From Arenibacter arenosicollis (GTDB lineage: Bacteria; Bacteroidota; Bacteroidia; Flavobacteriales; Flavobacteriaceae), in assembly GCF_014397245.1 (NCBI RefSeq), contig NZ_JACLHY010000011.1, positions 1 through 64,000 of the forward strand: a DNA stretch of 64,000 nucleotides. Direction: 5' to 3'. The notes under the pieces are model-generated. The model worked only from the letters and a program-made list of their open reading frames with translations, was not told the origin of the DNA and did no database searches. Below, piece by piece: positions 3,514-26,667 of the stretch. A program made the translations under genes and the position numbers. Each line of letters starts with the position of its first letter. Positions within the stretch are counted from its first letter, which is position 1.

Positions 3514-3548
3514 TTTATTGATTTCTTTTTCTGTAAATAATAGTTTGG

Positions 3549-6500: not shown

Positions 6501-6707
6501 ACTTACACCAATCGTTCTTTCGTTGTTACGCCAATTTGTATCCCCAGAAATTGGGCCTATAGTTCCGGACAAAGTATGGGTATCTGTATTGATGATTTGA
6601 ATATTACCCCCTTTCAATGCAGAAACGTAGGCTTTGTTTTGTGAAAACAATGCTAAAGGAGTCAATAGTAAGAAAAATAGAATTTTAATAAAACTTTGGT
6701 TATTCAT
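3549..6707 (-). CDS. T9SS type B substrate: beta-propeller, 17 TSP3-like repeats, gliding-motility C-terminal domain
   Basis: A 1052-residue secreted protein. Residues 1-22 are a signal peptide. Residues 25-360 form YncE/YVTN-like propeller blades (NKAYVSALKGGNIQIINT, SSDNNFVYVCN, NNDGSKIYVGTGGG). From about residue 363 there are 17 repeats of 33 residues of the DSDNDGVMDDVDTCADTPSG type, each with a pair of Cys and many Asp, followed by a shorter final unit. This is the thrombospondin type 3 pattern that binds calcium. The C-terminus (SFTPNGDGINDTWVI... to the end) is the CHU_C / gliding-motility-associated domain that directs T9SS type B export. It sits in an operon with the PorP/SprF-like gene. 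A calcium-dependent surface adhesin is the likely role; the ligand is unknown. Confidence 0.88.
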   Translation of the reverse strand: MNNQSFIKILFFLLLTPLALFSQNKAYVSALKGGNIQIINTDTHTLSGTIGPISGDTNWRNNERTIGVSNDNKYLFQDCYNCGGGTKIIDLSDNSIIGNISNFSGKSGIVSSPSGSKIYTAAAYSVNIYDVNSQLSTNFVSRNTGTCNAANPNEAYQSVRLAINSSGTKLYVANLDPRKKGVSVYDTSTGSEIKIHSGISGATRLNISSDNNFVYVCNTSWGYSSCANDPSLMTDIYGVENSNHSSDIAIIDTNTNSVIDYINVGGAVDVVSNNDGSKIYVGTGGGVKVIERNLSTNAHSLSSDTYNTGSVSHMEIDPTGSFLYVVSSNVLKHVDLISGNISTISTSSSDFLGNIVFEKPFLDTDQDGIHDSLDLCPSTPSGQSVDANGCSDSQKDSDNDGVMDDVDTCADTPSGETPDSNGCSDSQKDSDNDGVMDDVDICANTPTGETPDSNGCSDSQKDSDDDGVMDDVDICANTPTGETPDSNGCSDSQKDSDDDGVMDDVDTCADTPSGETPDSNGCSDSQKDSDDDGVMDDVDTCANTPNGETVDANGCSDSQKDADNDGVSDAIDICADTPTGETVGANGCSDSQKDSDDDGVMDDADTCADTPSGESVDANGCSDSQKDSDNDGVMDDTDTCANTPTGEIVDNNGCSDSQKDSDNDGVMDDTDTCADTASGENVGANGCSDSQKDADNDGVSDAIDTCANTPSGETADANGCSDSQKDADNDGVMDNVDNCSNTPTGEPVDANGCSDSQKDSDNDGIMDNVDTCYNTPSGETVDANGCSDSQKDSDDDGVLDAIDICDNTPGGENADSMGCSASQKDADGDEVKNEVDDCPATPAGESVDANGCSDSQKDSDFDGVNDAEDQCPASPEDEAVDANGCTTSQKDTDNDGVSDELDECPNTASGESVDAIGCADSQKDADGDGIQDSLDNCPAVHNPGQEDRDNDSLGNVCDTVELNISQSFTPNGDGINDTWVISNIENYPNSLVRVFNSWGKEVFSARKYQNIWDGRYKDLGAKLPDAGSYYFQIDYEGDGKVDQDGWLYITSR
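3939..5621 (-). repeat. 17 tandem 99-bp units coding for TSP3-like repeats
   Basis: The repeat register was checked at both ends: the first unit begins at 5621, and 17 x 99 bp brings the 18th, degenerate unit to 3938. Units in the middle (about 5130-5530) are nearly identical at DNA level. The outermost units are more diverged. Confidence 0.9.
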
Positions 6708-7347: not shown

Positions 7348-10300
7348 TTACAATCCGCTAGGTACTTCACCCGCGACATTAAAATTAGTTACCAACAATG
7401 AGAAATCCTCCAATCCAACAGAACCATCTCCGTTGAAATCTGCCTTAGAATCATAGCCTGCGTTCCCTAAACTAAGATTGAAAGTAGTAACTAAAACAGA
7501 GAAATCCTCAAGTCCAACCGCATTGTCATTGTCGGCATCCCCTACCCTAAGTTCCCCCACACTCAGATTGTTGTCTCCAGCCTCTAAGGTAATGGTCGTC
7601 ACTTTTTGCAAATGCATTCCAGATTTAACAGCTATTTCATAGGTTCCCTGGGGAATTCCTATCATTACTGCTTCGCCATTGGAAGTTCCAATAGGAGTAA
7701 ATTCCAATAAAGGTGTAACAGCCCCAACTTCAAATATCCCTACCGATAAATCAATACTATAATCTGTGCGCCCCTGTAGGCTATAGGAAACGGTCAAATC
7801 CGATTCTGCTGCGGAAGGATCAAACTCCAATACTATAGTATTGGATGCAATGCTATTTATTCCATTGGCACCAGTAACTACAGCAACGAAATGATTTAGA
7901 CCTCCATTTGGCGTTCCGGAAGCTCCCGATGTTTGTGTTAGGGTAACCGGAATATTGGCAACTCCCGATGCATTTAGCTGGGTTGTATACAACTCTTTGG
8001 CCATCGCCTCATTAGCCTCAAAAGGATCAATATCATAACCTATAGAAGGATTACCTGCATCAATGTATAATCGGCCATCTACACGCAATAAGCTAACCAA
8101 AGCATTTGGCTCACCCGTAATTTGGACAACTTGATTCGCCTCTGTTACCAGTCTCGAGGCTACTGACCCCGCTATTAAAATAGAAGGTGCCACCAAATTA
8201 TTGCTTTCGCCATTTACAATTGCATCAGACCCACCGAGCGAGCCTTCATCATATAAACTTGTAGTATACACAACCCCACTGGCAAACTCAATGGTAATTG
8301 TAGCCCCAATCAGTTCAAATCCCGAAATGGAACCTGCATCACCGGAGGACAAATCACCCTTAATGGTTGTTGGATCCATATCCACTCCAAACACAAATGA
8401 TTCGCCCGGATTGAAATCTGTAAAATTCAGCTCCAAAACATCATATCCCTCTGCGTTATTAACACCATTATGTGGCTGACCAAATACACTTACACAATCT
8501 TCGTTATCCGATCCACCATTTCCTGGTACAGTCAAGCCAACGGCAGTAGACGTGCTACCCGCATTACCCGCCGTTAAACACTTTGCAACACTATCACCTG
8601 CTGTTCCCACTGGATCAAAAACCACATCCATCATAAAGCCAGTTGCCGTATTGATGGTAACATTTACAATGTTATCGTCCCCTGTATTGTCAATAAAGAA
8701 AGAATTGTTTCCATAAGTTGATGCTTCTAAATCACTACCTGGTGTAACCTTTACAGTAGCTTCCGGATTACCAATAGGTAAGGCCGTAACATTCCAATTA
8801 AAACTAACCACCGTACTTGAAGGGGGGACACAAGCATCATTTACCGTTACGGTAACATTGTAAGGACTATTTTCTGAGGCTCCGGGTGCGCCACCAACAT
8901 TCTGTGAAGATTGAGCTCCATTTAATAAGGTATTGTTTACACCTGTCCCTGTATTGTCTATATGGGTTAAAGCAATACGATCTATTTTATGGCCTTCTGA
9001 ACGCTCGTTCATAGTAATTGCATATGTACCAGGGTTCGCGAAATAAGCGTATATAGGCCAAGCATTATTATCTATAGTACGCGCATACCACGAATTAGCA
9101 ATCGTATTGGTATACACCTTGAAGAAACCATTGATTCCAGGGTTTTCATTTCCATGATCAGGCCTTCCTTGGGCATTTCCCTTAGGCCAATACAAGGTTT
9201 TCGTAGTACTTGCCGGATTGCTTAGTTCACTAAGGAATTGTTGGGTTCCGGTAAGATCTCCTCCCTGCACCGTAAAGAAATGAACATCAGGGGTGTTGTC
9301 TATTTTAAACCACGTATCATTTTTGTCCGTAGAAGTTGAACCTGTAATAGCCGATTTCACATGAAAGCGATATACTCCAGGTGTTGTAATTTCGACATTA
9401 TAATTAACGCTTTGCCCGTTTAGGTTCGAAAAATGGTCTGTACTTGCCACCAAAAATGTTGTTCCTGAAGTGGTTTGAAGATTAAATCCACCGGCGGTAT
9501 CTGTAAAATCGGTCTCAGCTTCCATAATAACTACTCCATTGTTCTCAATAAAAGCACCGGCTGTTCCACTTCCTGAACCTCCAAGAATAGTACCAGAAAT
9601 TAGACCAGTAGTCGGGTCAATTGTAAGATTAGGTGGTAAATTGGTCGCTGAAAAATTTAAGGGTCCACAAGGATCAGTATTTTCATCATTTGCAACAATT
9701 TGAAGGTTTACGGAATCCCCGTCCACTGCGGTCTGTGCGCCAGGATTGGCAACCACGGGCGGCAAACCAGAGGTAGGATTACCTGTAACTGCAACTATTT
9801 CAATTGCTTTGAGGGCAGGATTCTCTACTCCGTGAATAAATTGGAGATCCAAAGTTCCATCTGTAACAGTTATCCTATGGGATACCATAAAAGCGCCCAA
9901 AGCTCCAGCTGTACTAAATGGATCGATATCATTGAATGTACTAGGGACGGATCCCTCAACAGAAACATCAAAAACCCTTTGTCCTGCCGCAGTTATTTGA
10001 TTGTACAACTCAGCAAAATAAAGTCGCACTTCTACTTCCGTCCCAGAATCCACTGGAAACTGCCACAACATCTCCGGTGCTGCAATGGCGTCATATCTTT
10101 CTGTCTCAAAAATAATACTCGGTGTTCCTGAAGGAAGGGATGAATGGGTCATATTAATAGGTCCCGTATATGCGGAACCAGCAGATTTGTTGTATAGGCC
10201 ACCAGGGGTAGTTGCAGCTGCTAAATATTGCGAGTTTCCAGCAACCCCAAAAGTACCTTGATCCACACTCCAGTCCGGATTGGGTGAGTCCGTTGCCGCA

Positions 10301-13300
10301 ATCAATTCACCTCCTGCATTTATTCGGTATAAAACAGTCGATACCTCTTCGCCACTAGAAACTCCTATACTAGCAGAACCATTGCTCCCATATGCCACAA
10401 CCAAAGAAGCAACTTCCCCAGTTTGGGAACCTGTATGTTCTATTTGAACTGTTTTGGTTGCACCTGCCTCAATTAAAAAGCTTGTTGGTCCAAGAATATT
10501 AAAATTGGACGCATTTGAACCCGTAAGTGCCAAGGATTTAACATATATCCCTTGATTTCCTCCTGAAATATTGACCAACAAATTCTCTACTCCCCCTTGT
10601 GGAACTGTTATGGTTGCAGGTACCGATAGTACACTTGCCACAACTGAAGTCCCTGTAGGGTTGTCCACACCATAAACCTCCATTTTGGTCTGGTTACCGC
10701 CTCCTTGGTTGGGAGACCCTGAAGTAATCCATATACCATCTCCAGATACAATACCCTGTGTACCGTGACGTGGATTGTTAAGACTGCTTAAAGATGTCCA
10801 TGTATTGGTATTTACATCCAAGGCATCTGTATTGCCATAGGCCTGTCCATTTCCTTCCCCACCAATTACGAGCACTTTTCCATTAAAAGTGACTGTTCCA
10901 GAAGCAGCGCGCGGAGTAGGCAAATTACCGGATGTCGGTAGGGTTATCCATGTTTTACTAACAAAATCATATACATCCACCTCAGGGATGACGGGAGCGA
11001 AAGTTCCTCCATCACCACCTGTAAGCCTACCACCTACGACATATAATTTATTGCCAACAACGGTAGCGTGAAAATGATCTCGGGGCCGTGGCACATCTCC
11101 CAAGACTGTCCATTTGCCCGTAGCAGGGTCAAATTCGTCGAACCATGAGATATAACCGCCATTATGCCCAATGGTATTTCCTGCTATAACATAAAACTTA
11201 TTATTGTACATCACCAATCCGGCAGAACCTCTTTTACGTGCACTAGGTATGGCGGGACCTTGAATCCAAGTATCGGAAACAGGATTGTACATATAAATAT
11301 GATCGGCCGGGGCTTCAGTGGGGTATCCATTATCCTTAAAGGATCCAATAACCCAAATTAACCCTTCATAAGCAACAGCTTGGAAGTGATTAAATTCGAA
11401 TGGGGCAGTTGAGGCCGCCTGGGACCATGTATTGGTATTGTAGTCATAAATTTCTACCTTTTTGGCATTTTCCCTACCACCGAACAAATAAAATTTATCT
11501 CCTGCTTGTACGAATGAGTTCTCGTGTCTAGGAGTATGTTCCGTTACATTGGTTATATTAGTCCAGTCTCCACTAACGGCACCTCCGGAGGTAATAATCT
11601 CAATACCTTTAATATTGGGGTTTTCAATTCCTTTGATAAAATCAATATCAAGGTTTCCATCATTTACCTCTACTACAAAACTCTCCACTCCTACAGTAGC
11701 AAACCCATATTTAGCTGTTTGATCCAAATTGTTCAGTACTATTTGGCCTTCAATGGCTACATCGAATACGCGTACACCCGGAGTGTTGGCTCCAGTCCAT
11801 ACCTCTGCAAATAGCAAATTTATGGTATAGGTCCCCTGCGCCAGTGGAATATCCCACTGCATATTTCCAGGTACGACCAATGTATTATATCTTTCTGTAG
11901 CGAAAATATTATTGGGATAGGACGTATTGTTGACAAAAGCGCCTGGAAGTGCTGCCCCATAAGTTTTATCCTCTGTTGAAGAATTTACATATGCGGAAGG
12001 TATTCCGTTTTGTGCAGTACCGTTGGCACCACTTGCTGCCTGATCCTCTCCCCAATTTATTGGAGACGCATCGCTGGAGGCAACAATGTTTCCCCCTGCG
12101 TTAATGCGGTACAACACATTGTTAGGCGCGTTGGGATCATTTACTGTCCAAGCAAAATTAACATTTGCCGGTGTGGATGATGGTTTACTGACGGTTACTG
12201 TCACATTGTACTGCCCGGCATCTTCTGCATAGGAAGAAATGGTTCCTAATATAGCTCCTTGGGTTGGTTCTATACTCAAGCCAGGAGGTAATCCAGTAAC
12301 AGAAAATGTGAAATTCTCATTAGGATCACCACCACTTGCGGTAATGTTCAAGGTTGGTGTATCGCCCGGATTGTTTATTTGATTGGCAACAGGGTCAATA
12401 ACGATCGGTGAATTTACAACACTTCCTGCACCAAGTATTTCAATGGCGTTTATCAAGGGGTTTTCAGTTTGATGTATAAATTCAATATTCAAAACGCCAT
12501 CGCTAACAGTAACTTGATAACTTTCCATAGCACCTACCTTATTTCCATATTGTGCAGTTAGATCCTTATCGTTTATAACCAGTACATCTTCCATTTTAAC
12601 ATCGAACACACGCTGCCCCGGAGCTCCTGTACCATCGTACCCATTACCCATATATAGATTTACAGTAAAAGTGCCATTGCCAGTATTAAAAGTCCACTCC
12701 ATTTCCGGCAGACCAGCTGGATCCCATCGCTCCTTCGCAAATAATTCCTGGGGTGCATAAGTTGGAACCGATGAATGCCTTCCAGCAATATTATGTGTAG
12801 AAATATTGCCAGTGTTAACATCAAAATTAGTTCCGCCAGTTGCTCCAACAACATCATTGCCCGCCCAATTGGGATTTGGGGCATCTATTGTCGTAACGGT
12901 AGCGCCACCAGCATTTACCCTGAATAACACTGCTGGCTGCTCTGTTACATTGACTGTAAACATTTGTTCTACAAACAACGAATTGGAATCCGTGGCCCTA
13001 ATGGTAATATTTGAACTTGCCTCGGTATTGGGATAAGTCAAGGTCAGTATATTGGCAGAAATGCTAGCACCGATAGCCGGATTTGAATTGTTTTCTACAG
13101 TGTATGTTAAATTCCCTACCCCTTGGTCATCTCCAAAATAATCGTTAAGATCAATATTTTGATCTGGAGAACTAATCAATTTATCCAAATTGGCCAAAGG
13201 CTGGGATATAGTAGGTTGACTTCCTGTAACATTCAAATAATCCCATGTTCCTTCTACCTCTTCTCCGGCTGCATTGGAGGTTCCTATTAAACCTACCGCT

Positions 13301-15963
13301 AAAATGGTAGACGATTGTTGTATTGCTGTTTTTATTGTCCCAGATGCCGCAATAGTCCCTAAGGAAATTGGGGGATTACCATCAAGACTGTATAAAACTT
13401 CTACTGCCGCGGTAACCGCATTAATATTAAATGAAAAAACAACATCATTGGAAGGCCTATTTCCTGCTGCGATTGTAGCCGTTAGCGGTGTTTGGGGCAC
13501 ATCATTGATTTCCTGTAAGGCTACAACCCCGTTCTGGGTAAGGACAACCTTAATATAATTGCTTTGAGTTCCATCCCCTATAAATATTCCCAATTCACCT
13601 CCAGATGGAGCACTGGAACCATAAAGCTGGGTAGGATCGGAAAAATTAAATAATCGGCCAACAACGGTAAATGAGTTAACGGATTGATCTACGTTTACAC
13701 CATATTGAAATCCTTTTTCCTGACTATTGTCTGTACCCAATGCCGTTCCCGAAGTCATCTGCATGGTCATTGCACCTGTTGCTCCTCCTAAAATATCATT
13801 GGGGTTTGGACCGGCACCAACTACATCCAACCAATTTAGCCAGTTAGGATTGGGGGCACCATTATTCATAAGACCTGTTAATCCAAGACCCAAATAACCA
13901 CCTAGAACTAAATTATCGGATAATAATTCGTTCAGCACTGGTAAATCAAATCCATCAGAACCATTATCCAACGGGTTACCCAATTGAAATGGGTCATTGG
14001 CATCTATAATACCATCGTTATCATCGTCATTATCGTTCAAATCAGAAACCAAAACCCCACCTGCCACTTTATCAAAATCATTTGGCTGTGATCCCCCGTT
14101 ACAATGGTCTATATTGTTCTGAACTTCATCTTGATTGGTGTAACCGTCTTGATCGGTATCTGCCAACCCATCATATAAGTCATCGGAGGGGTCTAAACAC
14201 ACAACCTCTGGTTGTGGCTCCAAAATTTTGATGGTACCATTAAATGTCGCCACCCATATGGTCCCAGGAAAAGGATCATTGTCCCCATTACATGTAATAC
14301 CCAGGGCATTACCCCCAAGACCAGATGCAAAAGTATTGGTCAATTGATCCAAGCTACCATCGGGCTGTAATTGTACCCTTCTCAAAATACCGTTATTATG
14401 ACCAGCGATCAAGTCGCCAACCATACTTTCCGAACCGGTAAATATTGTTGAGGTATATTCATCTATTCCATTAGTGTTATTGCCCCAGACAGTTACCAAA
14501 GCATCTTGTGGTCCATCTGGATTGTTGGTTGAAGGTCCTCTCCAATCACCTTGTGCTCCATCTGCAAGACTTACGGGAACAGGTGGCCAATCTACAGGTA
14601 ACGCAATACTTGCATTATTAGTATAGCCAGCTCCTTTTAAACCCGTTGGGTCATAAATCAACGTTCTAAATACCGCTCCGTTGGTGTTGTTTACGGAGGG
14701 GTTAGTATAAAGTCCCGCTCCGGCCGGATTGGCCCTGATCGGTGCCGGGTGACCTCCATAAAAAGTCCCAAATGAATACCCTTGAATATTTGTGGTAACC
14801 AAGGACAAATGGTCATCGTTATCTACCTTTTCCCCTCCAATAGCCGTATTACTTCCAGGTTCACTGGAATTATAATCGTTGGTCACGTTAGCTGTTCCTT
14901 CGTTATTGGGAAAACCGCCCCATCCTCCATTGGCTCCATTATCGGTCACATACACCGCCCCAGAGGCCGTAAGCACTAAATCATATGCATTTCTATACCC
15001 CGGTGAAAATATTTGCACAGGTCCTCCAATTACAATTTTTGCCTGGTTCAATCCATCATTACCACCCCAGGGATCATTTACATCTATACCATCATAGCCC
15101 GGTGCATCCGGATCAATTATACCATTAACGTTGGCCCTGGTAGGATCGTCCAAAGTAGGAATGTCATATATATAATTTCTTCCATCGTTTTTAATGGGCA
15201 AACCTTCTATAAGGTTTAGGTTTATGGAAAGAACTGCAGCAGATAGAGCGTATTCGGTTGTCCAAGCAAAATTGTCAGATGGCGATCCAGCATTGGTATG
15301 GCCGCCCTGTGCTACTATTAGAAAATCCACACCATTTATAGTTGCAAATTCCAATCCATTGGTCGCATGGTTTTCCTCGGACCTGGGTAGGCCACGGACA
15401 ATATCCACCACGGCCCATGAACTTCCTGTCCAAGTAAATCGTGTAATTACGCCCGAATTGGTGTCGAGATTTAAATCACCACTAGGACCTCCTACACGAG
15501 AATCACTGGAAGTAACATAAATTATAGGGTTTGAAGTCGTTCCTGCCACAGTAATACCTGTAGCCTCTCGGTTAGTTCCACTGTTTGCCGAACCGTCATC
15601 ATTGTGATTTGGAATGTTCTTAACTCCCAACAGTTTTTCGGATGCCGTTACAACATAATCATTACTTCCATTCTTCTGCACCGTAAAAATATCAATAGTG
15701 CCATTTAAGTTAAGAACATACAATCTGCCATCAGGTCCATACATCAAGGAGGTACCTTGACTAACCCCACCATTCCCGTTGTAATTAAGGTTACTTTGAC
15801 TAAAGGATTGTGCCTTTAAACCATTAGTACAGAGTAGTAACATCACAGTAAACATAATTATGGAGCTACTCCCATTTCCTCGAGAAATTGTATTTATACT
15901 TAATGGTCTGAAATACTTCATAATCTTTGGAATAATGGTTTGTTTAAAATTAAATTTTTCCAT
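7348..15963 (-). CDS. Giant secreted carbohydrate-binding protein with three malectin domains, Kelch propeller and C-terminal dockerin
   Basis: 2871 residues. An N-terminal signal peptide (IIMFTVMLLLCTNGLKAQ) can be reached from the first Met or from Met15. Approximate domains in order: sugar-dehydrogenase-like beta-propeller 55-590; Asp-rich EF-like stretch near 604-660; concanavalin-like region 720-915; cadherin-like 920-1005; malectin 1010-1178, 1283-1452 and 1878-2052 (each starting F/YRxNAGG); Kelch propeller 1465-1780; CBM6-like segment starting VIMEAETDF, 2148-2331. The last 65 residues contain two type I dockerin calcium loops, DADNDNAVGLED and DFNGDGSVGLED, each followed by a short helix. 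There is no T9SS sorting domain. It follows the cohesin-like gene by 26 bp, in the same operon. Inference: it docks on that protein at the cell surface. How it crosses the outer membrane is not visible. Confidence 0.85.
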   Translation of the reverse strand: MEKFNFKQTIIPKIMKYFRPLSINTISRGNGSSSIIMFTVMLLLCTNGLKAQSFSQSNLNYNGNGGVSQGTSLMYGPDGRLYVLNLNGTIDIFTVQKNGSNDYVVTASEKLLGVKNIPNHNDDGSANSGTNREATGITVAGTTSNPIIYVTSSDSRVGGPSGDLNLDTNSGVITRFTWTGSSWAVVDIVRGLPRSEENHATNGLEFATINGVDFLIVAQGGHTNAGSPSDNFAWTTEYALSAAVLSINLNLIEGLPIKNDGRNYIYDIPTLDDPTRANVNGIIDPDAPGYDGIDVNDPWGGNDGLNQAKIVIGGPVQIFSPGYRNAYDLVLTASGAVYVTDNGANGGWGGFPNNEGTANVTNDYNSSEPGSNTAIGGEKVDNDDHLSLVTTNIQGYSFGTFYGGHPAPIRANPAGAGLYTNPSVNNTNGAVFRTLIYDPTGLKGAGYTNNASIALPVDWPPVPVSLADGAQGDWRGPSTNNPDGPQDALVTVWGNNTNGIDEYTSTIFTGSESMVGDLIAGHNNGILRRVQLQPDGSLDQLTNTFASGLGGNALGITCNGDNDPFPGTIWVATFNGTIKILEPQPEVVCLDPSDDLYDGLADTDQDGYTNQDEVQNNIDHCNGGSQPNDFDKVAGGVLVSDLNDNDDDNDGIIDANDPFQLGNPLDNGSDGFDLPVLNELLSDNLVLGGYLGLGLTGLMNNGAPNPNWLNWLDVVGAGPNPNDILGGATGAMTMQMTSGTALGTDNSQEKGFQYGVNVDQSVNSFTVVGRLFNFSDPTQLYGSSAPSGGELGIFIGDGTQSNYIKVVLTQNGVVALQEINDVPQTPLTATIAAGNRPSNDVVFSFNINAVTAAVEVLYSLDGNPPISLGTIAASGTIKTAIQQSSTILAVGLIGTSNAAGEEVEGTWDYLNVTGSQPTISQPLANLDKLISSPDQNIDLNDYFGDDQGVGNLTYTVENNSNPAIGASISANILTLTYPNTEASSNITIRATDSNSLFVEQMFTVNVTEQPAVLFRVNAGGATVTTIDAPNPNWAGNDVVGATGGTNFDVNTGNISTHNIAGRHSSVPTYAPQELFAKERWDPAGLPEMEWTFNTGNGTFTVNLYMGNGYDGTGAPGQRVFDVKMEDVLVINDKDLTAQYGNKVGAMESYQVTVSDGVLNIEFIHQTENPLINAIEILGAGSVVNSPIVIDPVANQINNPGDTPTLNITASGGDPNENFTFSVTGLPPGLSIEPTQGAILGTISSYAEDAGQYNVTVTVSKPSSTPANVNFAWTVNDPNAPNNVLYRINAGGNIVASSDASPINWGEDQAASGANGTAQNGIPSAYVNSSTEDKTYGAALPGAFVNNTSYPNNIFATERYNTLVVPGNMQWDIPLAQGTYTINLLFAEVWTGANTPGVRVFDVAIEGQIVLNNLDQTAKYGFATVGVESFVVEVNDGNLDIDFIKGIENPNIKGIEIITSGGAVSGDWTNITNVTEHTPRHENSFVQAGDKFYLFGGRENAKKVEIYDYNTNTWSQAASTAPFEFNHFQAVAYEGLIWVIGSFKDNGYPTEAPADHIYMYNPVSDTWIQGPAIPSARKRGSAGLVMYNNKFYVIAGNTIGHNGGYISWFDEFDPATGKWTVLGDVPRPRDHFHATVVGNKLYVVGGRLTGGDGGTFAPVIPEVDVYDFVSKTWITLPTSGNLPTPRAASGTVTFNGKVLVIGGEGNGQAYGNTDALDVNTNTWTSLSSLNNPRHGTQGIVSGDGIWITSGSPNQGGGNQTKMEVYGVDNPTGTSVVASVLSVPATITVPQGGVENLLVNISGGNQGIYVKSLALTGSNASNFNILGPTSFLIEAGATKTVQIEHTGSQTGEVASLVVAYGSNGSASIGVSSGEEVSTVLYRINAGGELIAATDSPNPDWSVDQGTFGVAGNSQYLAAATTPGGLYNKSAGSAYTGPINMTHSSLPSGTPSIIFETERYDAIAAPEMLWQFPVDSGTEVEVRLYFAELYNQITAAGQRVFDVSVEGSVPSTFNDIDPFSTAGALGAFMVSHRITVTDGTLDLQFIHGVENPALKAIEIVAVTGNPTSGLPPVVANPGAQTAVDGDSVNLQIVANDENTDPCGPLNFSATNLPPNLTIDPTTGLISGTILGGSGSGTAGAFIENNGVVIMEAETDFTDTAGGFNLQTTSGTTFLVASTDHFSNLNGQSVNYNVEITTPGVYRFHVKSAITGSTSTDKNDTWFKIDNTPDVHFFTVQGGDLTGTQQFLSELSNPASTTKTLYWPKGNAQGRPDHGNENPGINGFFKVYTNTIANSWYARTIDNNAWPIYAYFANPGTYAITMNERSEGHKIDRIALTHIDNTGTGVNNTLLNGAQSSQNVGGAPGASENSPYNVTVTVNDACVPPSSTVVSFNWNVTALPIGNPEATVKVTPGSDLEASTYGNNSFFIDNTGDDNIVNVTINTATGFMMDVVFDPVGTAGDSVAKCLTAGNAGSTSTAVGLTVPGNGGSDNEDCVSVFGQPHNGVNNAEGYDVLELNFTDFNPGESFVFGVDMDPTTIKGDLSSGDAGSISGFELIGATITIEFASGVVYTTSLYDEGSLGGSDAIVNGESNNLVAPSILIAGSVASRLVTEANQVVQITGEPNALVSLLRVDGRLYIDAGNPSIGYDIDPFEANEAMAKELYTTQLNASGVANIPVTLTQTSGASGTPNGGLNHFVAVVTGANGINSIASNTIVLEFDPSAAESDLTVSYSLQGRTDYSIDLSVGIFEVGAVTPLLEFTPIGTSNGEAVMIGIPQGTYEIAVKSGMHLQKVTTITLEAGDNNLSVGELRVGDADNDNAVGLEDFSVLVTTFNLSLGNAGYDSKADFNGDGSVGLEDFSLLVTNFNVAGEVPSGL

Positions 15964-15989
15964 TTTCTAAATCTTTTTTTGGGACTGGG

Positions 15990-18900
15990 TTATCGTTTAA
16001 TTGCCATTTGTTGTTGTAATTCCTTTCCTTCAGCATCTATAGTTCTTATGAAATAAGATCCTGTTGGGAGATCCTGAACTCCAAGGAGATAGGTCTCAAC
16101 GTCCTCACTTGCATCCATCTTTAATGATTTTACCAACCTACCCGTTATATCATATACATAAATCTGGGTTAATGGTGTTGGCTCATCAAAGGAAACCGTA
16201 ACACTTTCATTAGCCGGATTTGGAGAGATATTCATTGAGGTAACGGATGCTTTGGCAGTAGAAGCGGACTGTACTACATTAAAAACAATTGTCAATGATT
16301 GTCCCGCAACTCCTGTGCCCCCTGCCAAGGTATAAGGTGTTGCCTTAAGGGTATAAGTTCCGATCGGGAGAGATGTTGGTATATAATCACCGTTAAAGTC
16401 ACCATAAAGCGCATATGGAGCACTTGTCTCTGTCCATGTTCTGGTCAGAGTACCTGACAATTCAAACTTCACACTTCCTACAATCCCAGGATCCGTATTA
16501 GCTCTTATGTTGACTCCTTCACCATCATTAACATTCATATTATTCTGAATATCAAATAGGTCAAATTGGTTTTCCGCATCTATCAAGGTAAAACTTACCA
16601 CTTTGTCGATATCGGTAGGATCAACAGCAACAACCTGAATGCTTGTAGTTCCTATTCCATCATCATCATCGGTTACTGTAAGCGTTACTGTTTTAGTACC
16701 CCCAGAGCTATAGGTATGGGAAGGATTTTGGGAAGTTGAGGTAGTTCCGTCTCCAAAATTCCAAGAGTACCCAACTATGTTCCCATCACTATCCGTTGAA
16801 CCTAAGCTTGAGAAATTAATTTTAAACGCAGTGTTGGCATCCGAGTTGCCTATTGCAACAGCTATTGGATTAACATTGCCCGGTGGTCCACTTACAACAC
16901 TAAAATTAATTGTTTGGGTAGTTCCCACGGATGGTCTCGCCACTAAAGTGTAATTCCCTACCGGAAAGGGTTTGCCTTGAATATCCACACCTATATCCCC
17001 GAACAATGAGTAAGGTGCTGATGGTCCTTCGGACTTAGTCTGACTTATTGGTCCCGTAAGTGTAAAATAAACATTACCCGGATTTAGATTAGGGTTAAAG
17101 ATGATACCCAAAGGAGTCTCTCCTATATCGGTTTTGGAAATCTGCAATCCATTGGTTAAAGCATATAATTGACTATCATTATTGGCATTCAATATAAATA
17201 GTGCCGCATTGCTGTTAGGTGCATTTACATTGACACTTACACTTGTTGTACCTATTGCTCCATCGTCATCCCTTACGGTAAGAGTACAAACAAAACTACC
17301 CTGGGTGGCATAGGTATGTGACGGGTTGATCTGGGTAGAGGTTGCTCCATCCCCAAAGTCCCATTCGTAGGAGTCTATATTACCATCGGCATCACTGGAA
17401 CCAACACTTGAAAAATTTACCAATAAAGGTGCCGTTCCACTATTGGCCGTAGCCGTGACCACAGCAATTGGAGGTTGATTAATACTAGGATCAATTGCAG
17501 TTACATTAATACTTTTAGTACTAGTTGCGTTGTCATCATCCATCAATGTTAGGCTAACACTAAATATACCACCTGAGCCGTAAGTATGTGCTGGATTTTG
17601 CAGATTTGAGGTATTACCATCACCGAAATTCCATGAATACCCTGTTATAATTCCATCATTATCAGTAGATCCTGCGCTCGAGAAATTAATTTTAAACGGA
17701 ACACTATTGTCTGGGTTACCTGCTAGAGCCACAACTGGAGGCACATTGGCCGGAGGACCACTTATAATCGAGAAATTAATGGTCTGACTTACTCCCGAAG
17801 TAGTAGAGGTTACCAAGGTATAATTCCCAATTGGGAAGGGCTTCCCCTGTATATCTACACCTATATCTCCGAATAAAGAATATGGAGCAGATGGCCCTTC
17901 AGATTTATTCTGATTTATGGGACCGGTCAACTTAAATGAGACGTTTCCAGGATTTAAAGCTGCGTTATAAATAATACCCAAAGGCGTATTGCCTATGGTA
18001 GTTTTATCTATCTGAAGTCCGTCAGTTAAAGCAAATAAGGTAATATCAGTATTCGCATCAACTACAATCACCGAGGCATTATTTATTGGACTACCTACTT
18101 TTATTGTTCGTGTAGCACTATTAGAACAACCATTACCATCTTGATACGTATACATTATAGTGTAAGTTCCACTTCCTATAGAAGGGTCAAAGGTATTACT
18201 GCTTACCCCTGTACCACTATATACACCTCCGGAAGGACTACCTCCAGTTAAAGCAAACTGGTTATCTGTTATAAGTACATCGGCAAAAGGCGCCAAGGTT
18301 ACTACAGGAAGTGTTGGGCCATTTAATGTAATTGCCAAATTTTCGGAACAACCATTAGCATCGGTAACTGTAACATTATAAGTACCAGCTCCCAATCCAC
18401 TAACTGTAGCAGTGTTCAAATTGGCATTATGGCTCCAATTATATGTAAGAGGCCCCACAAACCCAACGGTGTTGATGACTATAGAACCATCGTTGCTATT
18501 ACAAGCGCTAGGGTTAGAAGAAGTACTCACGCTTGCGTCAAAATTACTACATAATGGATTCTGATTTGTGAATTGAAAGGTTATGGTCTTTGGAGAACCT
18601 TGATTTCCACTCAATCCTGAATTGGCATATGGAGTAGCCATAAGGGTATAATTTCCTATAGGAAACAACTCACCAATATAATCGCCTGTTGTTGCATTAT
18701 CACCATACAATGTGAAGGGTGCAACACTTTCAGTTTGATTCCTACTCTTAGTGCCAGTGAGCAATAACTTTACGCTACCCACATCCGGGGTAGCATTGGC
18801 CCTGATGGCAAGGTTGGTGGTGACGTAAGTTCCAGCGTTGATCAATTTACCATTAGTCAATGGCATTATATCCTGATCTGTATCCGCATTTACAAGCGTA

Positions 18901-21900
18901 AATCCATTTACGGTAAGCGAAGCTGGGGCTGTAGTTTCTATGGTTACATTGAAACTACAGGTCTGATTGTTTCCTGCCGCATCAGTAACCTCAAAAATAT
19001 TTAATGTTGTTCCCAGTGGAAAGTTGGAACCACTTGCAAGACCTTGAGTTTGCTGAATATTGGCATTAGGACAATTGTCACTAAAAAGCGGAGTCGTAAA
19101 ATCCACGATGGCAGTTGAAACTCCTTCTGCAACCTGGATAACAATATCTTGCGGACAACTTATTGTTGGATTTTCAGAGTCTAGTACGGTAACCGTAAAA
19201 CTACATGAAGATGTATTTCCTGATGCATCAGTAACGGTATAAACCTCTGTAGTTATACCGATAGGGAAAAACTCCCCACTTCCCAAACCTTGGGTTAGGT
19301 TGGTTATAGCCTCTGGAACATTGTCCGTTCCAACCGGTGCGGTATAATTTACCACCGCTCCGCATTGTCCGCTGTCATTGGACATACTAATGTCTCCCAA
19401 GCAAGTAATTTCCGGATCTTCGTTATCTTCTTGAACAGTAACAGTAACCGTCCAATTCTTTAAAGTTCCATTTTGAGCTGTAACCGTATAATTTACTGAG
19501 TTGGTAAAATCCAAAACTGTTCCCGAGGAAGGATTTATTGTGGCATCTGCCGAAATCCCAATACTAGGTGAAAGGCCAGTAACATCTGTTCCAGCAACAA
19601 CGGTAACTCCTACTGTACCAGACGAAGCATCAATAATTTCCGGTCCAAACTGTCCTTCGACACTAAAAGACTCAATGTTTTTCTGGGTGGAAGCCGTAAA
19701 ATCAACTGTAACTGATTGTATACAAGAACTTATATTGCCAGCATTATCAGTAGCTTTCCATTCTATCTGGGTAGTCCCTACGGGATAAGCATCGTCTATT
19801 TCCTGACCATCATTACGTGTACTCGTTAATGTAACATCCAATTGCGAACATGAATCGAAAACAGATGGGGGAATAATTGTGACAGCAATTGGATTACCAT
19901 TGAAACTAGTCTCATTAATATTGGACGGACATTCAAAATTTGGCCCCACCTCATCATTTACAGTAATGGTCTGTATACATGAGTCCGAAACATTCCCCGA
20001 TCCATCTTCCGCAGTCCAGGTCACTATGGTCTGTCCTAAAGCATAGGCCGAGTCCAAGGGAAGACCATCACTTCTGTTGGCCTCAAAAGTTATATTTCCA
20101 TCAATATCCGTTGCAGATACTCCAGTAAGTGTCAACAACACACCGCAAATATCCGGATCCGTAGATGTCACAACATTATCTGGACATGTAATAACCGGTG
20201 CAGTGCTGTCAAAAACGGTGACCGTTTGGGTTACCTCCGTCGCAGGATTACCAGCCCCATCAGAAACATTATAGGTAATTAAATAATCTCCCAAAGCATC
20301 GGGATCAACAATGTCCCCACCAATTAAAATTTCATCGGTCAGATCACCATCGACATCGTCCAAGGCACTGGCCCCCAAATTAAAATAAGTTGAGCCTAAT
20401 TCCACCAAAAGTGGATCAACATCCAGAAGTGTTATAACTGGTGGTATATTGTCCGGTAGGTTTACCAAAAAATTCACTACAGCCGTAGCCTCTGCATTTT
20501 CAAAAGCTGCATGAGTAGGATCTGCCACTACTAGAACAATGGTATTTGGTCCATCCACTATCCCATCTGCAGCTGTTAGGTCCCAGAATTCCTGTCCTAT
20601 CTGTGAAGCTGTTGAAATTCGGGTAGCTGGATCAATATTATTGAGGTCTGGTGGATTAACAAATAAATGATAGTGCTCTGTAAGAGCATATAACACATCC
20701 GTTCCTGTCCATTCCAATCTTACATCGGTAGAATTCAATTCTGCAGCTTCTAAAGGAAGGTCTATAACCACACCGGGCCCAGAAACATTAACAGTTACGT
20801 TGGCAGTACCCACTTCTGAACCATTATCTGTCGCAGTTGCCGTCAAGGTTTGAACTCCTGGCGTAACAAATTGTCCGGTAATTGCCGAACCAATTCCGTC
20901 TAAAGGTGTTGTAGTAAATCTAGTGTCGTTAGAACTCCAATCGATAAAATTGGAAATGTCTCCATCCTCAATATCCAAAGCAGTTCCGGTAAGAGTAACA
21001 TCCGTCCCCCGTATTACTGGATCTCCATTAGCCGGTGCAGTTATTGACACCACTGGCGGAGTGTTAATGGGTTCAGAAATTAAACAAATACTGAATCCTT
21101 TTACAGATGGATTTTGATTACCTTTTTTAAAGTCGATATTCATAATACCGTCCGTAACTTCAACGATAAAAGTTTCAACTTTTGCTATGTTGAACCCACC
21201 AGCGGCTAAATATGGTCTATAGTCATCCAACACCAGATCACCTTCTATTTCCACATCAAAAATCCTATTGTTATTGGGGTTGGCTTCTCCAGTCCAGTTT
21301 TCATTGAATAAAATATTTACTTCGTACGTACCGTTAGCTGGAAACTCCCAGTTCATTAAAACCCCGCCATCTATATGCCGCTCTGTTTGAAAAATAGCAT
21401 CAGGATATCCAGTGTTATTTGACACCAAAGCTGCATTTGAGCCAAAGGTTTTATCTACAACACCCTTGTAATAAGGGGAAGGAGTTCCTGTACCAGCAGT
21501 TCCGCCGGCCCCAGCAACAGATTGATCTGCTTCAAAATCCCCCCCTGACAATCCTTGGATGGGACCTCCTGCATTTACCCTGAAAGCCACATTGCAGGCT
21601 GCAATGGCAGACTGTGTTATATCAAAATTTTTAAGGTTGACCCCGGCGTTAAAATCCAGACGGATTGTCTGTATACCCGGATTGCTAAATTCCACGGAGG
21701 TAGAAAAAGACGAATAAGTCTGCCAACCCGAGGTAGACGATACATTGACCGATCCAATGGCAGCAAACCCTCCTCCATCTTCTTCAGAAACTGTTATAAC
21801 AGTAATTCCCCCGGGCTGCTTGGCTGCAAAAAACTCAATATCATAAACTCCGGGAGCGGGAACATCAATTAAATACTCTACAAAATCCCCCGCATCTATA

Positions 21901-24155
21901 TACCCTATATTCTTAGCAGCATTGGCCTCAATAGCCACTGTAAACGGTGCAGCCGGAGAAGCTCCATACCAAGGTAAAGGGTTGCTAAAAGTTCTGGCAA
22001 AAATATCTGTTGGAATCGGTTGGGCAATATTAATATTAAAGCTCTGTTTTACAGCTGGATTAACACCATCATCGGCAGTGACTTCGGCCACATAGGAGCG
22101 ACCGTCTCCTTGGCTAGTACTCCAATTAAGTACAAAACTACCACCTCCATTATCCGTAAACGTATAATCTGTTGCAGGTATCACTGTGGATGGCAATAAG
22201 GGACTATTGGTTCCTCCATTACTTTTGTCATAAATAACAATACTGGCATTGAACACATCTTTATCATCTGAAACAATTACATCAGCGGATGCTGTTGATC
22301 CCTCTGCCACTTCAATATCATTTATGGGGGCAATACTAGGAGGAAGATCAGTTCCAGAAGGATAAATTGTAATTGTAAACTCTGCGGTTACAGGATCACT
22401 GACCCCATCATCAATAATGGCATTGATTACATGATCACCAAGCTCGGCTACCAAAGGAGTTCCCTCCAATTGGTTTGTTGATGGATTATAGCTTAAGGAA
22501 GCCGGTAAGTTATTAAATACAATATTCAACTGATCGCTATCTACAATATTCAAGGTTTCTGCCACGGCAGCAAGTGCCTCAAATTGAAGATTGCCGATAT
22601 TGGCTATTGGATGTACATTTGTGCCAGAAGTCGCCGTAACGCAAAGTCCGGATATTTTTCCATTATCGACCGACGCAGGTCCAACTTGCACATTAAGATT
22701 TCCGTCAACAACCTCTACAAAATAGGTTCTTACAATAGCTGTTTTGTTGGAAGAAATACCGTCTTTTATAGGATCTACCAAATCGTATTCATCCAAAATA
22801 ACGTTCCCTTCCATAAGAACGTCAAAAACCCTACCACCTGCAGCAGGATGATAAACTTCGGCGAAATACAGATCTACTTTATAATAACCATTTGGAACAG
22901 GAATCTCATACATCAATGGAGGGTTGGCACTATCCTTACCCCCATAAATTTCCTTTTGAAAAAATAAAAGTTCATCAGCAGTGGATGTCCCACTAATTGC
23001 ACCATTATAACCTAAATAAGCTTTACCACCAGTCCGTACAAAGGAAGTCCCAGTCGGTGGAGTGGTCGCGGGATCTCCAACGAAATTGCGACCAAAAGCA
23101 GTAAGTGCATCATTACCACTGGCTATACATAATTGGAAAGCATTTTCTATGAACGTAGCACTTATACTTGCAGTTGCCTGAACATCTGTGAACTCATATG
23201 AGGCTACGGGACCAACAGAGCTTCCATTTACTATAACATCTTCTATTTCAAACCCTTGGTCCGGGGTTATGGTAAAAATAATATTATCTCCTTGGTTAAC
23301 TTGGGTAGTAGATGGGGATATAGTTCCATTTGCGCCAGGATTAGTAGTGATCGTATATGTGTTAACCACAACTTGGGAAACATTTACCGTACGTACTACT
23401 TCTGCTGCCGGATTCTCAGCTGCATCCATTACGTTATATGTAACAAAATAACTTCCCACTGTATTGGTATCCACCACATCTCCTCCTATAATTACATTTT
23501 CACTAATATCACCATCTGTTTCATCGTTGGCATTGACTCCTTGTTCGGAATAGACATCTCCTACCGATAAATTGATGACCTCATCTCCGATGAGGGTAAT
23601 AACTGGAGGTATTATATCTGTTACTCCAACTATAATTGTGGATCCACTTGTCCCGGACAATATGTTTTGTCCCTCAAACGTAACTTTTGAAGGAAGTCCA
23701 CTAAATTCTAAATCGGTAGAGCCTTCAGCGATTGCCGTAAATTGTATTTCCAGTAAATCGAAATCAGTATTCGGAAAGGCAAAAAATGTTCCTCCCACAT
23801 AATCGATCACACCCAGAGCATTATCAAAACCAGGACCGATGATGGGTAGCGGTAAGGGATTTGGCTGAGGTAGGCTTACACTTGTCACCTCAATTATACT
23901 TGGATCAAAACTCATATGAATTTCAGCTCCATCCGCAGATTGATCTGTCTCAACCCTCACTGTAATTGTAAAAGTTTCATTAAGTGCAACGGTAGGTGAT
24001 GATGGATCGGTCGTTATTTGCACCTGCCCCATAAGGGATGAGCTAAAACATAAAAGTATTAGCAGTATCACTATTACCCTACTTTCCAATTTAATGGACT
24101 GCGCTAATTGCATTGGTAATAAATATCCAATAGGTTTACGTAAAAATCTGTGCAT
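15990..24155 (-). CDS. Giant T9SS surface protein with N-terminal cohesin-like domain, malectin, CBM6, HYR and PKD domains
   Basis: 2721 residues. The signal peptide ends near SLMGQ. Residues 44-176 look like a cohesin: TFTITVRVETDQ, then AEIHMSFDPSIIEVTSVSL, a Gly-rich middle and LLEIQFTAIAEGSTDLEF. Next come an Ig-like DUF5011-type domain (182-257), an InlB-type repeat (264-335), malectin (339-510 and 855-1029), cadherin-like domains (519-715), CBM6-like (718-845), Ig-like domains, four HYR-type domains (1318-1745), a SprB-type repeat (1868-1945) and three PKD domains with the NFGDG motif (2150-2515). The PKD domains are interleaved with an unnamed module of about 110 residues. The end (NISPNPANESVTVSF... 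to the last residue) is a T9SS type A sorting domain. It is the first gene of a two-gene operon. Inference: a surface-anchored glycan-binding scaffold whose cohesin holds the dockerin protein encoded next. Confidence 0.85.
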   Translation of the reverse strand: MHRFLRKPIGYLLPMQLAQSIKLESRVIVILLILLCFSSSLMGQVQITTDPSSPTVALNETFTITVRVETDQSADGAEIHMSFDPSIIEVTSVSLPQPNPLPLPIIGPGFDNALGVIDYVGGTFFAFPNTDFDLLEIQFTAIAEGSTDLEFSGLPSKVTFEGQNILSGTSGSTIIVGVTDIIPPVITLIGDEVINLSVGDVYSEQGVNANDETDGDISENVIIGGDVVDTNTVGSYFVTYNVMDAAENPAAEVVRTVNVSQVVVNTYTITTNPGANGTISPSTTQVNQGDNIIFTITPDQGFEIEDVIVNGSSVGPVASYEFTDVQATASISATFIENAFQLCIASGNDALTAFGRNFVGDPATTPPTGTSFVRTGGKAYLGYNGAISGTSTADELLFFQKEIYGGKDSANPPLMYEIPVPNGYYKVDLYFAEVYHPAAGGRVFDVLMEGNVILDEYDLVDPIKDGISSNKTAIVRTYFVEVVDGNLNVQVGPASVDNGKISGLCVTATSGTNVHPIANIGNLQFEALAAVAETLNIVDSDQLNIVFNNLPASLSYNPSTNQLEGTPLVAELGDHVINAIIDDGVSDPVTAEFTITIYPSGTDLPPSIAPINDIEVAEGSTASADVIVSDDKDVFNASIVIYDKSNGGTNSPLLPSTVIPATDYTFTDNGGGSFVLNWSTSQGDGRSYVAEVTADDGVNPAVKQSFNINIAQPIPTDIFARTFSNPLPWYGASPAAPFTVAIEANAAKNIGYIDAGDFVEYLIDVPAPGVYDIEFFAAKQPGGITVITVSEEDGGGFAAIGSVNVSSTSGWQTYSSFSTSVEFSNPGIQTIRLDFNAGVNLKNFDITQSAIAACNVAFRVNAGGPIQGLSGGDFEADQSVAGAGGTAGTGTPSPYYKGVVDKTFGSNAALVSNNTGYPDAIFQTERHIDGGVLMNWEFPANGTYEVNILFNENWTGEANPNNNRIFDVEIEGDLVLDDYRPYLAAGGFNIAKVETFIVEVTDGIMNIDFKKGNQNPSVKGFSICLISEPINTPPVVSITAPANGDPVIRGTDVTLTGTALDIEDGDISNFIDWSSNDTRFTTTPLDGIGSAITGQFVTPGVQTLTATATDNGSEVGTANVTVNVSGPGVVIDLPLEAAELNSTDVRLEWTGTDVLYALTEHYHLFVNPPDLNNIDPATRISTASQIGQEFWDLTAADGIVDGPNTIVLVVADPTHAAFENAEATAVVNFLVNLPDNIPPVITLLDVDPLLVELGSTYFNLGASALDDVDGDLTDEILIGGDIVDPDALGDYLITYNVSDGAGNPATEVTQTVTVFDSTAPVITCPDNVVTSTDPDICGVLLTLTGVSATDIDGNITFEANRSDGLPLDSAYALGQTIVTWTAEDGSGNVSDSCIQTITVNDEVGPNFECPSNINETSFNGNPIAVTIIPPSVFDSCSQLDVTLTSTRNDGQEIDDAYPVGTTQIEWKATDNAGNISSCIQSVTVDFTASTQKNIESFSVEGQFGPEIIDASSGTVGVTVVAGTDVTGLSPSIGISADATINPSSGTVLDFTNSVNYTVTAQNGTLKNWTVTVTVQEDNEDPEITCLGDISMSNDSGQCGAVVNYTAPVGTDNVPEAITNLTQGLGSGEFFPIGITTEVYTVTDASGNTSSCSFTVTVLDSENPTISCPQDIVIQVAEGVSTAIVDFTTPLFSDNCPNANIQQTQGLASGSNFPLGTTLNIFEVTDAAGNNQTCSFNVTIETTAPASLTVNGFTLVNADTDQDIMPLTNGKLINAGTYVTTNLAIRANATPDVGSVKLLLTGTKSRNQTESVAPFTLYGDNATTGDYIGELFPIGNYTLMATPYANSGLSGNQGSPKTITFQFTNQNPLCSNFDASVSTSSNPSACNSNDGSIVINTVGFVGPLTYNWSHNANLNTATVSGLGAGTYNVTVTDANGCSENLAITLNGPTLPVVTLAPFADVLITDNQFALTGGSPSGGVYSGTGVSSNTFDPSIGSGTYTIMYTYQDGNGCSNSATRTIKVGSPINNASVIVVDANTDITLFALTDGLQIDKTTIGNTPLGIIYNAALNPGNVSFKLTGPINQNKSEGPSAPYSLFGDIGVDIQGKPFPIGNYTLVTSTTSGVSQTINFSIISGPPANVPPVVALAGNPDNSVPFKINFSSAGSTDNDGIITGYSWNFGDGNTSNLQNPAHTYGSGGIFSVSLTLMDDDNATSTKSINVTAIDPSINQPPIAVVTATANSGTAPLLVNFSSVGSSDADGNIDSYEWDFGDGATSTQINPSHTYATQGSFVCTLTVRDDDGAIGTTSVSVNVNAPNSNAALFILNANNDSQLYALTNGLQISKTDIGETPLGIIFNPNLNPGNVYFTLTGPISQTKSEGPSAPYSLFGDIGVDIQGKPFPVGNYTLVARPSVGTTQTINFSVVSGPPGNVNPIAVAIGNSDANTAFKINFSSLGSTDSDGNIVGYSWNFGDGTTSTSQNPSHTYSSGGTKTVTLTVTDDDDGIGTTSIQVVAVDPTDIDKVVSFTLIDAENQFDLFDIQNNMNVNDGEGVNIRANTDPGIVGSVKFELSGTLTRTWTETSAPYALYGDFNGDYIPTSLPIGTYTLKATPYTLAGGTGVAGQSLTIVFNVVQSASTAKASVTSMNISPNPANESVTVSFDEPTPLTQIYVYDITGRLVKSLKMDASEDVETYLLGVQDLPTGSYFIRTIDAEGKELQQQMAIKR

Positions 24156-24856: not shown

Positions 24857-24985
24857 TTAAAAACTATTCTCTGGAATCTTGCCCACTACTCCCTTAAAGA
24901 ATGTCTTATAAGTTATAAAATCCTGTTCCTTATCGTCTGTAGGATATTGCGGTTTGGAAATTTTAATCTGCTTTTTTCCGAAGTC
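24857..24985 (-). repeat. Right copy of the 129-bp direct repeat
   Basis: Direct-orientation partner of 7069-7197, differing at about 7 positions. It comprises the last 42 codons and stop codon of the acyltransferase. The interval between the copies (7198-24856) contains only the cohesin-like and dockerin genes plus their control regions. Confidence 0.9.
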
Positions 24986-25396
24986 GAACGCCACCAAAAC
25001 AATGGGAACTTTGGCCGCTTTGGCAATAAAATAAAAACCTGTTTTCCATACCGTAACTTTTTTTCTAGTGCCTTCCGGGGAAAGTGCCAATCTGAACTTT
25101 TTATTCTGCTCAAATACTTTGACCGTGGCACTAACAGTATCCATATTTCTACTTCTATCTATGGGGGCGCCACCCATCCATCGAAAATACCAGCCGAATG
25201 GTGGTTTAAAAAGTGCTTTCTTTCCAATAAAATGAATATCCTCATTCAATACCCGTCGAATCAGAAGTCCAAGAAAAAAATCGACCCAGCTGGTATGGGG
25301 CACCACAATAACAACGCATTTGTCCAATTGTGGAAATGAGCCGACTAGCTTCCATCCCAGAATCTTAAAATATATAAATTTTGCAATAGCATGCAT
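24857..25396 (-). CDS. 1-acyl-sn-glycerol-3-phosphate acyltransferase family protein (PlsC-like)
   Basis: A 179-residue membrane-associated acyltransferase, short but with all family blocks. The catalytic HxxxxD motif is HTSWVD at residues 34-39. The acceptor-binding block FIGKKALFKPPFGWYFRWMG follows at about 56-75, and SPEGTR is at 106-111. Such enzymes move an acyl chain onto lysophosphatidate or related acceptors in phospholipid synthesis. The small size and soluble look fit the short flavobacterial relatives, whose exact acceptor is uncertain. The last 129 bp are duplicated at 7069-7197 on the far side of the two giant genes, which suggests that the 3' end served as an insertion or recombination point. 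Confidence 0.85.
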   Translation of the reverse strand: MHAIAKFIYFKILGWKLVGSFPQLDKCVVIVVPHTSWVDFFLGLLIRRVLNEDIHFIGKKALFKPPFGWYFRWMGGAPIDRSRNMDTVSATVKVFEQNKKFRLALSPEGTRKKVTVWKTGFYFIAKAAKVPIVLVAFDFGKKQIKISKPQYPTDDKEQDFITYKTFFKGVVGKIPENSF

Positions 25397-25535
25397 AAAC
25401 CATCAATTGTTTAAAATGTTAAGGTCACAGATAGTTTTAATTACAAGGAACCATTTTACCAATTGTTACCTAACCCCAAATAAAATCAAGTTCATAATTA
25501 GCAAAAAATAAACAGATTCAATTTGTTCAGAAATA

Positions 25536-26663: not shown

Positions 26664-26667
26664 AAAC

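Follow-up and report, generated by a model that had tools for sequence, protein, structure and literature searches.

A predicted cohesin and a putative X-dockerin encoded by adjacent giant genes of Arenibacter arenosicollis

Two giant genes and their domains

The window analysed here, i.e. the whole stretch of 64,000 nucleotides from the marine flavobacterium Arenibacter arenosicollis, contains two giant genes, A and B, which lie side by side on the minus strand and read in the same direction. The open reading frame list of the window gives proteins of 2721 aa and 2871 aa, both of them where a first-pass annotation made from the letters alone had put them. The features considered below are the following:

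15990..24155, minus strand: gene A, 2721 aa, with signal peptide, predicted cohesin, Ig-like and InlB-like domains, two malectin domains, CBM6, HYR and PKD repeats and a T9SS type-A tail
24027..24155, minus strand: A residues 1-43, signal-peptide-like with a long n-region (read from the sequence)
23622..24026, minus strand: A residues 44-178, predicted cohesin domain (profiles; AF2, pLDDT 94.6; Foldseek; VIA-align)
22650..23135, minus strand: A residues 341-502, malectin (Pfam)
21615..21923, minus strand: A residues 745-847, CBM6 (Pfam)
16017..16229, minus strand: A residues 2643-2713, T9SS type-A sorting tail (PF18962, 1.9e-11; TIGR04183, 1.3e-6)
15964..15989, minus strand: gap of 26 nt from the stop of A to the start of B, which lies downstream of A (coordinates)
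7348..15963, minus strand: gene B, 2871 aa, with signal peptide, conserved N-terminal region, malectins, kelch propeller, He_PIG, putative X-module and dockerin; T9SS tail absent
15808..15963, minus strand: B residues 1-52, signal-peptide-like (read from the sequence)
14164..15816, minus strand: B residues 50-600, N-terminal body without a Pfam name, whose relatives lacking an X-dockerin (XDoc) mostly end in a T9SS tail of their own
11632..12117, minus strand: B residues 1283-1444, malectin (Pfam)
10714..11571, minus strand: B residues ~1465-1750, kelch propeller (Pfam)
7555..7830, minus strand: B residues ~2712-2803, putative X-module (PDB XDoc matches of the window sequence; fold modelled in the L165 relative)
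7351..7554, minus strand: B residues ~2804-2871, putative dockerin with two EF-type loops at 7504-7539 and 7405-7440 (profiles and sequence)

Both proteins have close counterparts in Arenibacter algicola E3M18, with 89% identity for A and 90% for B. The T9SS sorting domain that the first-pass annotation had read at the end of A is a type-A tail recognised by both PF18962 and TIGR04183, and the genome also encodes the T9SS translocon SprA (TIGR04189, 2918 bits). At the C-terminus of B, neither a type-A nor a type-B sorting domain was found with Pfam, NCBIfam or a PF18962 scan, as had been claimed, and its signal peptide, judged by eye, has no clear lipoprotein box. The richness in malectin/CBM6-type domains is borne out by Pfam, with two malectin stretches and one CBM6 in A and three malectin stretches plus the kelch propeller in B. 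The claim that neither protein has a glycoside hydrolase also stood, Pfam giving just a sub-threshold GH115_C match in B (E 0.12). The NCBIfam glucuronidase/arabinofuranosidase model NF049877 matches A with 50 bits and B with 102 bits (cut-off 1800), over positions 1053-1288 of its 1400; since the matching stretch of B (1277-1472) coincides with the Pfam malectin at 1283-1444, it is read as the malectin part of that family.

Downstream of B, two genes at positions 2626-6707 (minus strand) form a classic type B pair: the one at 3549-6707 encodes a thrombospondin-type-3 protein that ends in a T9SS type B tail, and the one at 2626-3573 encodes PorP/SprF. Upstream, positions 24857-28088 (minus strand) encode an acyltransferase, an iron alcohol dehydrogenase, a HAD hydrolase and a KdsB-type cytidylyltransferase; similar genes, compared by eye, flank the giant pairs of Pricia, Muriicola and Robiginitalea, so that the site of the pair seems to be conserved. 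A second relative of the N-terminal body of B, 68% identical, is found elsewhere in the same genome (G000:C45:221655-223322), its C-terminus lying beyond the contig end.

The N-terminus of A and the C-terminus of B

The curated Pfam models touch both domains below their cut-offs. The isolated A domain matches the cohesin model PF00963 with E 0.0013 and 19.3 to 19.6 bits (cut-off 24.1), while PF00963 is not listed for the whole of protein A and gives 0 matches in a search of the genome; the dockerin of the window sequence matches PF00404 with E 0.0014 and 19.2 bits (cut-off 22.9). For this reason, families were built for profile tests. The cohesin profile finds the A domain although PF00963 finds nothing in the genome, and the curated model thus looks too strict for this branch. 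Within the family of 10 sequences, PF00963 matches nine members at E<=1 (best 1.2e-6). The relative in locus L169 exceeds the cut-off with 32.5 bits. The best PDB match of the family profile is a cellulosomal scaffoldin cohesin (2.7e-8).

The AF2 model of the domain, based on 47 aligned sequences, reaches a pTM of 0.87 along with the pLDDT given above. The 50 Foldseek matches listed from the PDB all belong to cohesins or cellulosomal scaffoldins (best 1.3e-8), and the best of the 50 VIA-align matches listed is 6kgc_A (Z 17.0, 2.1 A, 134 residues). Among the latter, 48 are titled cohesin or scaffoldin; of the other two, 9ifr (Z 12.1) is a CLIPPER domain from an adhesin and 2o4e (Z 12.5) a glycosidase interaction module. 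Type I- and type II-titled cohesins both occur at Z 13.6 or more, type II up to 15.1. The modelled domain therefore has the beta-sandwich fold of cohesins by AF2, Foldseek and VIA-align, and by this predicted fold the N-terminal domain of A is a real cohesin. The first-pass annotation had called it cohesin-like and had set structure prediction beforehand as a refutation check; the domain now spans residues 44-178, cohesins head the PDB lists, and a plain Ig or CBM fold is ruled out by the Foldseek and VIA-align matches. In a comparison of three Arenibacter orthologues, identity is lower in the cohesin (78-83%) than in the body of A (82-90%), while the cohesin has a dN/dS of 0.09-0.13 that is no higher than the 0.11-0.15 of the body. 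Arenibacter certesii was excluded from the dN/dS comparison because its A is shortened: at L156:4104-8333 the protein is cut to 1409 aa, the cohesin end and the T9SS tail being kept.

At the other end of the pair, the two dockerin loops that had been written down for B, at residues 2809 and 2842, are confirmed, and the B dockerin matches a PDB dockerin at 9.6e-7. Moreover, the ~95 residues preceding the loops, which the first-pass annotation had missed, look like an X-module (2b59_B, 1.5e-8 over query 35-163), so that, to judge from sequence matches, the C-terminus of B looks like an X-module plus dockerin dyad. The X-module matches directly precede the dockerin, as in type II X-dockerin dyads, and the fold is taken from the AF2 model of the L165 relative, residues 16-166 of which superpose on 4wi0_B with X-module and dockerin together (Z 15.4, 141 residues). 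The XDoc-family profile matches clostridial X-dockerin structures of the PDB at 1.6e-10 to 2.4e-8. The two EF-type loops are aligned in 37 XDoc sequences, and PF00404 is found at E<=0.01 in 35 of 37 XDoc-ending proteins, some of these relatives being over the cut-off. PF00404 also matches weakly at eight other places in the genome (E 0.04 to 0.74, covering 14 to 25 of 57 positions), which were judged to be chance calcium loops.

Taken one by one, such domains could also be read as a generic beta-sandwich and a calcium-stabilised spacer, brought together by the ordinary clustering of surface genes and without any interaction, given that cohesin-like folds occur in adhesins too, as the CLIPPER match illustrates, and that giant surface proteins often contain calcium-loop domains. 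Against this stand the genome-wide co-occurrence of the two domains, their adjacency in two gene orders and their natural fusion, described below, which make a pair without interaction improbable.

Pairing across genomes and the place of the sorting tail

A search with the window XDoc found it in 9/299 genomes of the family, and the cohesin profile, applied to at most the best 13 candidates per genome, found a cohesin in the same 9/299, an agreement that is partly circular because the profile was made from those nine. The better test is therefore given by genomes found through the XDoc scan alone: a cohesin is present in 31 of 31 such Bacteroidota genomes, 25 of which were not used to build the profile. 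These 31 were taken from 77 XDoc loci as those labelled Bacteroidota, with one locus per genome and a second Muriicola locus excluded; three further G genomes bring the pairing count to 34 genomes. In these, 43 strong XDocs were counted, and for 40 of them a cohesin is encoded by the same gene or by its direct neighbour. The remaining three are one unlinked Muriicola gene and the XDocs of two genomes in which the partner genes sit on separate contigs. Within the nine family genomes, 11 dockerin genes were read, ten of which adjoin a gene for a cohesin with a T9SS tail. Two layouts occur: the window, Pricia, Muriicola and Robiginitalea encode a giant cohesin protein upstream, and others (e.g. 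Hanstruepera, Xanthomarina, Mangrovimonas) encode, directly downstream, a protein of ~255 aa that consists of signal peptide, cohesin and tail.

In a wider draw of 395 genomes of the class, three have an XDoc at E<=1e-10 and eight a cohesin at E<=1e-6, those three included; the other five, with a cohesin and no XDoc at these thresholds, are an exception to the pairing. Cohesin distances track those of the XDoc (r 0.91, n=29) better than those of the tail of the cohesin's own protein (0.75), a comparison that is supportive only, since it uses uncorrected identities and a short tail. The search for adjacent pairs in other genomes, which had been proposed along with the scaffold idea, thus found them widely, and at the sequence level the distribution supports A and B as a probable matched pair.

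Several arrangements depart from the simple pair. In the product of the unlinked Muriicola gene (L026:6037-8823, minus strand), the XDoc is accompanied by glucose/sorbosone dehydrogenase and cytochrome-like domains, which makes it an enzyme-like client without a cohesin neighbour of its own. In G255, a protein of 393 aa that combines two cohesins with a T9SS tail (L169:6109-7290) is encoded far from the single strong XDoc of the genome, which has no second strong XDoc for it and two weak matches at E 4.7e-4. A Chitinophagaceae MAG (L170:2845-9736) encodes an N,N-dimethylformamidase-like protein that ends in an XDoc and adjoins a gene for a cohesin with a T9SS tail. Among the loci not labelled Bacteroidota, a cohesin is contained in 17 of 45 and in 28 none was found within the locus DNA; five of these loci (L059, L060, L064, L067 and L070, four of them labelled Oscillochloris or Chloroploca) have the order cohesin-XDoc-cohesin in one protein, often with a YLPL-like end.

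The distribution of the sorting tail is one-sided. The PF18962 tail was found in all 32 cohesin proteins scanned, most of which are direct XDoc neighbours, and, at E<=0.01, in 0 of 37 XDoc-ending proteins. The 32 C-termini exclude ORFs running off the DNA (the third ORF of L159, and L160), duplicates, XDoc-ending and fused proteins and the Portibacter ORFs of L166 and L168, while the 37 exclude fusions, duplicates and one Portibacter ORF, and include two proteins that also carry cohesins. As for Portibacter, the XDoc of ORF L166:6578-13783 is not terminal and the tail is absent; one of the two cohesin ORFs of L166 has a tail and the other, the small L166:5854-6618, has none.

The relatives of the N-terminal body of B end otherwise. 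At least 49 of them without XDoc were found in 31/298 genomes (E<=1e-60, at most the best four candidates per genome). The C-termini were read for 39 outside the loci already covered, of which 11 run off the contig (one of these, judged by eye, is the 5' portion of an XDoc gene already known) and 28 are closed frames. Of these closed frames, 24 have a T9SS tail at the C-terminus and none has a dockerin there; of the four without tail, two have masked bases and two have other ends. Furthermore, two neighbouring paralogues of Mangrovimonas (G098), 61% identical over 1252 aligned residues, differ in that one ends in an XDoc and the other in the tail (PF18962, 8.4e-12).

In Saprospiria, XDoc and cohesin are fused in one ORF five times, PF18962 following in four of the five and not in L168. 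Multi-cohesin and chain-like sets are also seen in this group; in Neolewinella xylanilytica an XDoc-ending gene is followed by a cohesin plus XDoc gene and then by a cohesin gene whose end lies beyond the DNA examined. Outside the loci labelled Bacteroidota, six loci (L093, L098, L101, L104, L105 and L106, some labelled Gemmatimonadetes or Latescibacteria) have an XDoc-like match inside a protein ending in FlgD_ig, three of these proteins with weak PF18962 matches below the cut-off, so that in this set a dockerin and a tail-like end do not exclude each other.

Tails on the cohesin proteins, none on the XDoc-ending ones and body relatives with a tail of their own make it seem that the dockerin replaces the sorting tail, which would be supplied in trans; as B has none, A seems to lend its own. 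The first-pass annotation had spoken of one T9SS partner held on another: the pairing is supported, but only A carries a T9SS tail.

The same position at the protein end, together with the fact that Pfam and NCBIfam reveal no other export signal in B, could also mean that the XDoc acts as a T9SS export signal in its own right, so far unrecognised, and replaces the type-A tail, the neighbouring cohesin not being its receptor. Four of the Saprospiria fusions, however, have XDoc and T9SS tail both, an XDoc occurs with a cohesin also in loci labelled Chloroflexi or Chloroploca, groups that are not known to have a T9SS, and the cohesin pairing would be left unexplained; we therefore regard this reading as highly improbable.

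A putative surface assembly and its relation to known systems

The scaffold-pair interpretation of the first-pass annotation is supported by these results, and A and B probably form a dedicated two-protein surface assembly, the XDoc of B being bound by the cohesin of A and A supplying the anchor. Both proteins would reach the periplasm by Sec signal peptides, as read from their sequences. A would then be exported and anchored through its type-A tail, given the established role of that tail as described in PMC10202324. The C-terminal dyad of B would bind the N-terminal cohesin of A, with calcium probably sitting in both dockerin loops, and A would in this way keep the malectin- and kelch-rich body of B at the cell surface, with the dockerin in the place where relatives of B have their sorting tail. 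This clasp is inferred from the established behaviour of the cohesin and dockerin families, the folds being taken from models or profiles. The AF2 model of a natural XDoc-cohesin fusion, with an alignment (A8) of 30 rows comprising five natural fusions and 25 XDoc rows, shows high local confidence and a pTM of 0.54, so that the domains are not confidently docked. Two alignments with unpaired cohesin rows (A6 and A7) were dropped, because these rows fell partly (A6) or wholly (A7) on the X-dockerin.

The order of events allows two versions. B may fold in the periplasm, clasp A or, in other genera, the ~255-aa adaptor, and be dragged through SprA as a complex, a T9SS piggyback that we propose tentatively and at somewhat less than an even chance; SprA accepts folded proteins, according to PMC9251779. 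Alternatively, B might cross the outer membrane or be released in some other way and be captured outside by A, on the same or neighbouring cells, which we consider possible and less likely than not. Such a capture would follow the order of events known from cellulosomes, whose scaffoldins and enzymes leave the cell independently of each other, and would avoid the heavy co-export load of a 2871-aa partner, but B lacks both a known signal for export across the outer membrane and a clear lipoprotein box.

A cellulosome is ruled out for this pair. The genome has one cohesin at E<=0.001, where a cellulosomal scaffoldin has several, and one XDoc protein, in which no hydrolase catalytic domain is called. 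Among the Bacteroidota loci read, multi-cohesin proteins occur only in N. persica, Portibacter and G255.

The clostridial type II cohesin-XDoc complex of PDB 2b59, which we take to be CipA-SdbA, is similar in that the dyad lies at the C-terminus of a giant protein and the cohesin partner at the cell surface. There, anchoring is by an S-layer type domain and the envelope is Gram-positive, whereas here a T9SS tail would serve in a Gram-negative one. The T9SS type B substrates with their PorP/SprF partners are likewise encoded by clustered genes and depend on a second protein for secretion, proposed also for anchoring; in that case, however, the T9SS signal is part of the substrate and the partner, PorP/SprF, sits in the membrane, while here the client has no signal and the partner carries the tail. 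The nearest published precedent found, as far as the consulted part of PMC8542988 extends, is Candidatus Stygibacter (Cloacimonadota), with a 3755-aa tandem-cohesin scaffoldin inferred from MAGs. As here, the dockerins are encoded separately, and a non-catalytic cohesin protein is said to have a conserved C-terminal domain that attaches it to the surface of its own cell, with reference to a review of the T9SS, but that scaffoldin serves several dockerin-bearing glycosidases and peptidases, and the same portion of PMC8542988 describes neither an adjacent one-to-one pair nor a tail swap. An Omnitrophota giant protein with nine non-cellulosomal dockerins is also surface-type and outside cellulosomes, and the section of PMC10066038 available names no cohesin partner for it. 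Tat hitchhiker export resembles the present case only if the co-export reading holds, one signal then carrying two proteins; it uses a different membrane and machine, and co-export here is a proposal.

Cohesins and dockerins outside cellulosomes are already known, and the review of non-cellulosomal cohesins by Peer (2009) may list some of the present modules. In the texts and excerpts covered by the literature search, no account was found of a cohesin-dockerin pair in Flavobacteriia, of a T9SS piggyback, or of an adjacent pair, a minimal adaptor or a tail swap. For the Bacteroidota cellulose users, the portions of PMC5831590 and PMC6247017 seen report no such modules in the genomes treated, and T9SS substrates are described as recognised by their own C-terminal domain in PMC10202324.

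If the clasp works as proposed, a sorting signal could be lent from protein to protein, Bacteroidota would use cohesin and dockerin in a non-cellulosomal manner for surface display, and some T9SS clients would be hidden from domain-based counts; the ~255-aa adaptors make the clasp testable with small constructs. If, in addition, the piggyback is true, these adaptors would be detachable T9SS tags, the T9SS would also export proteins that themselves lack a sorting signal, and counts of T9SS secretomes based on C-terminal domains would fall short.
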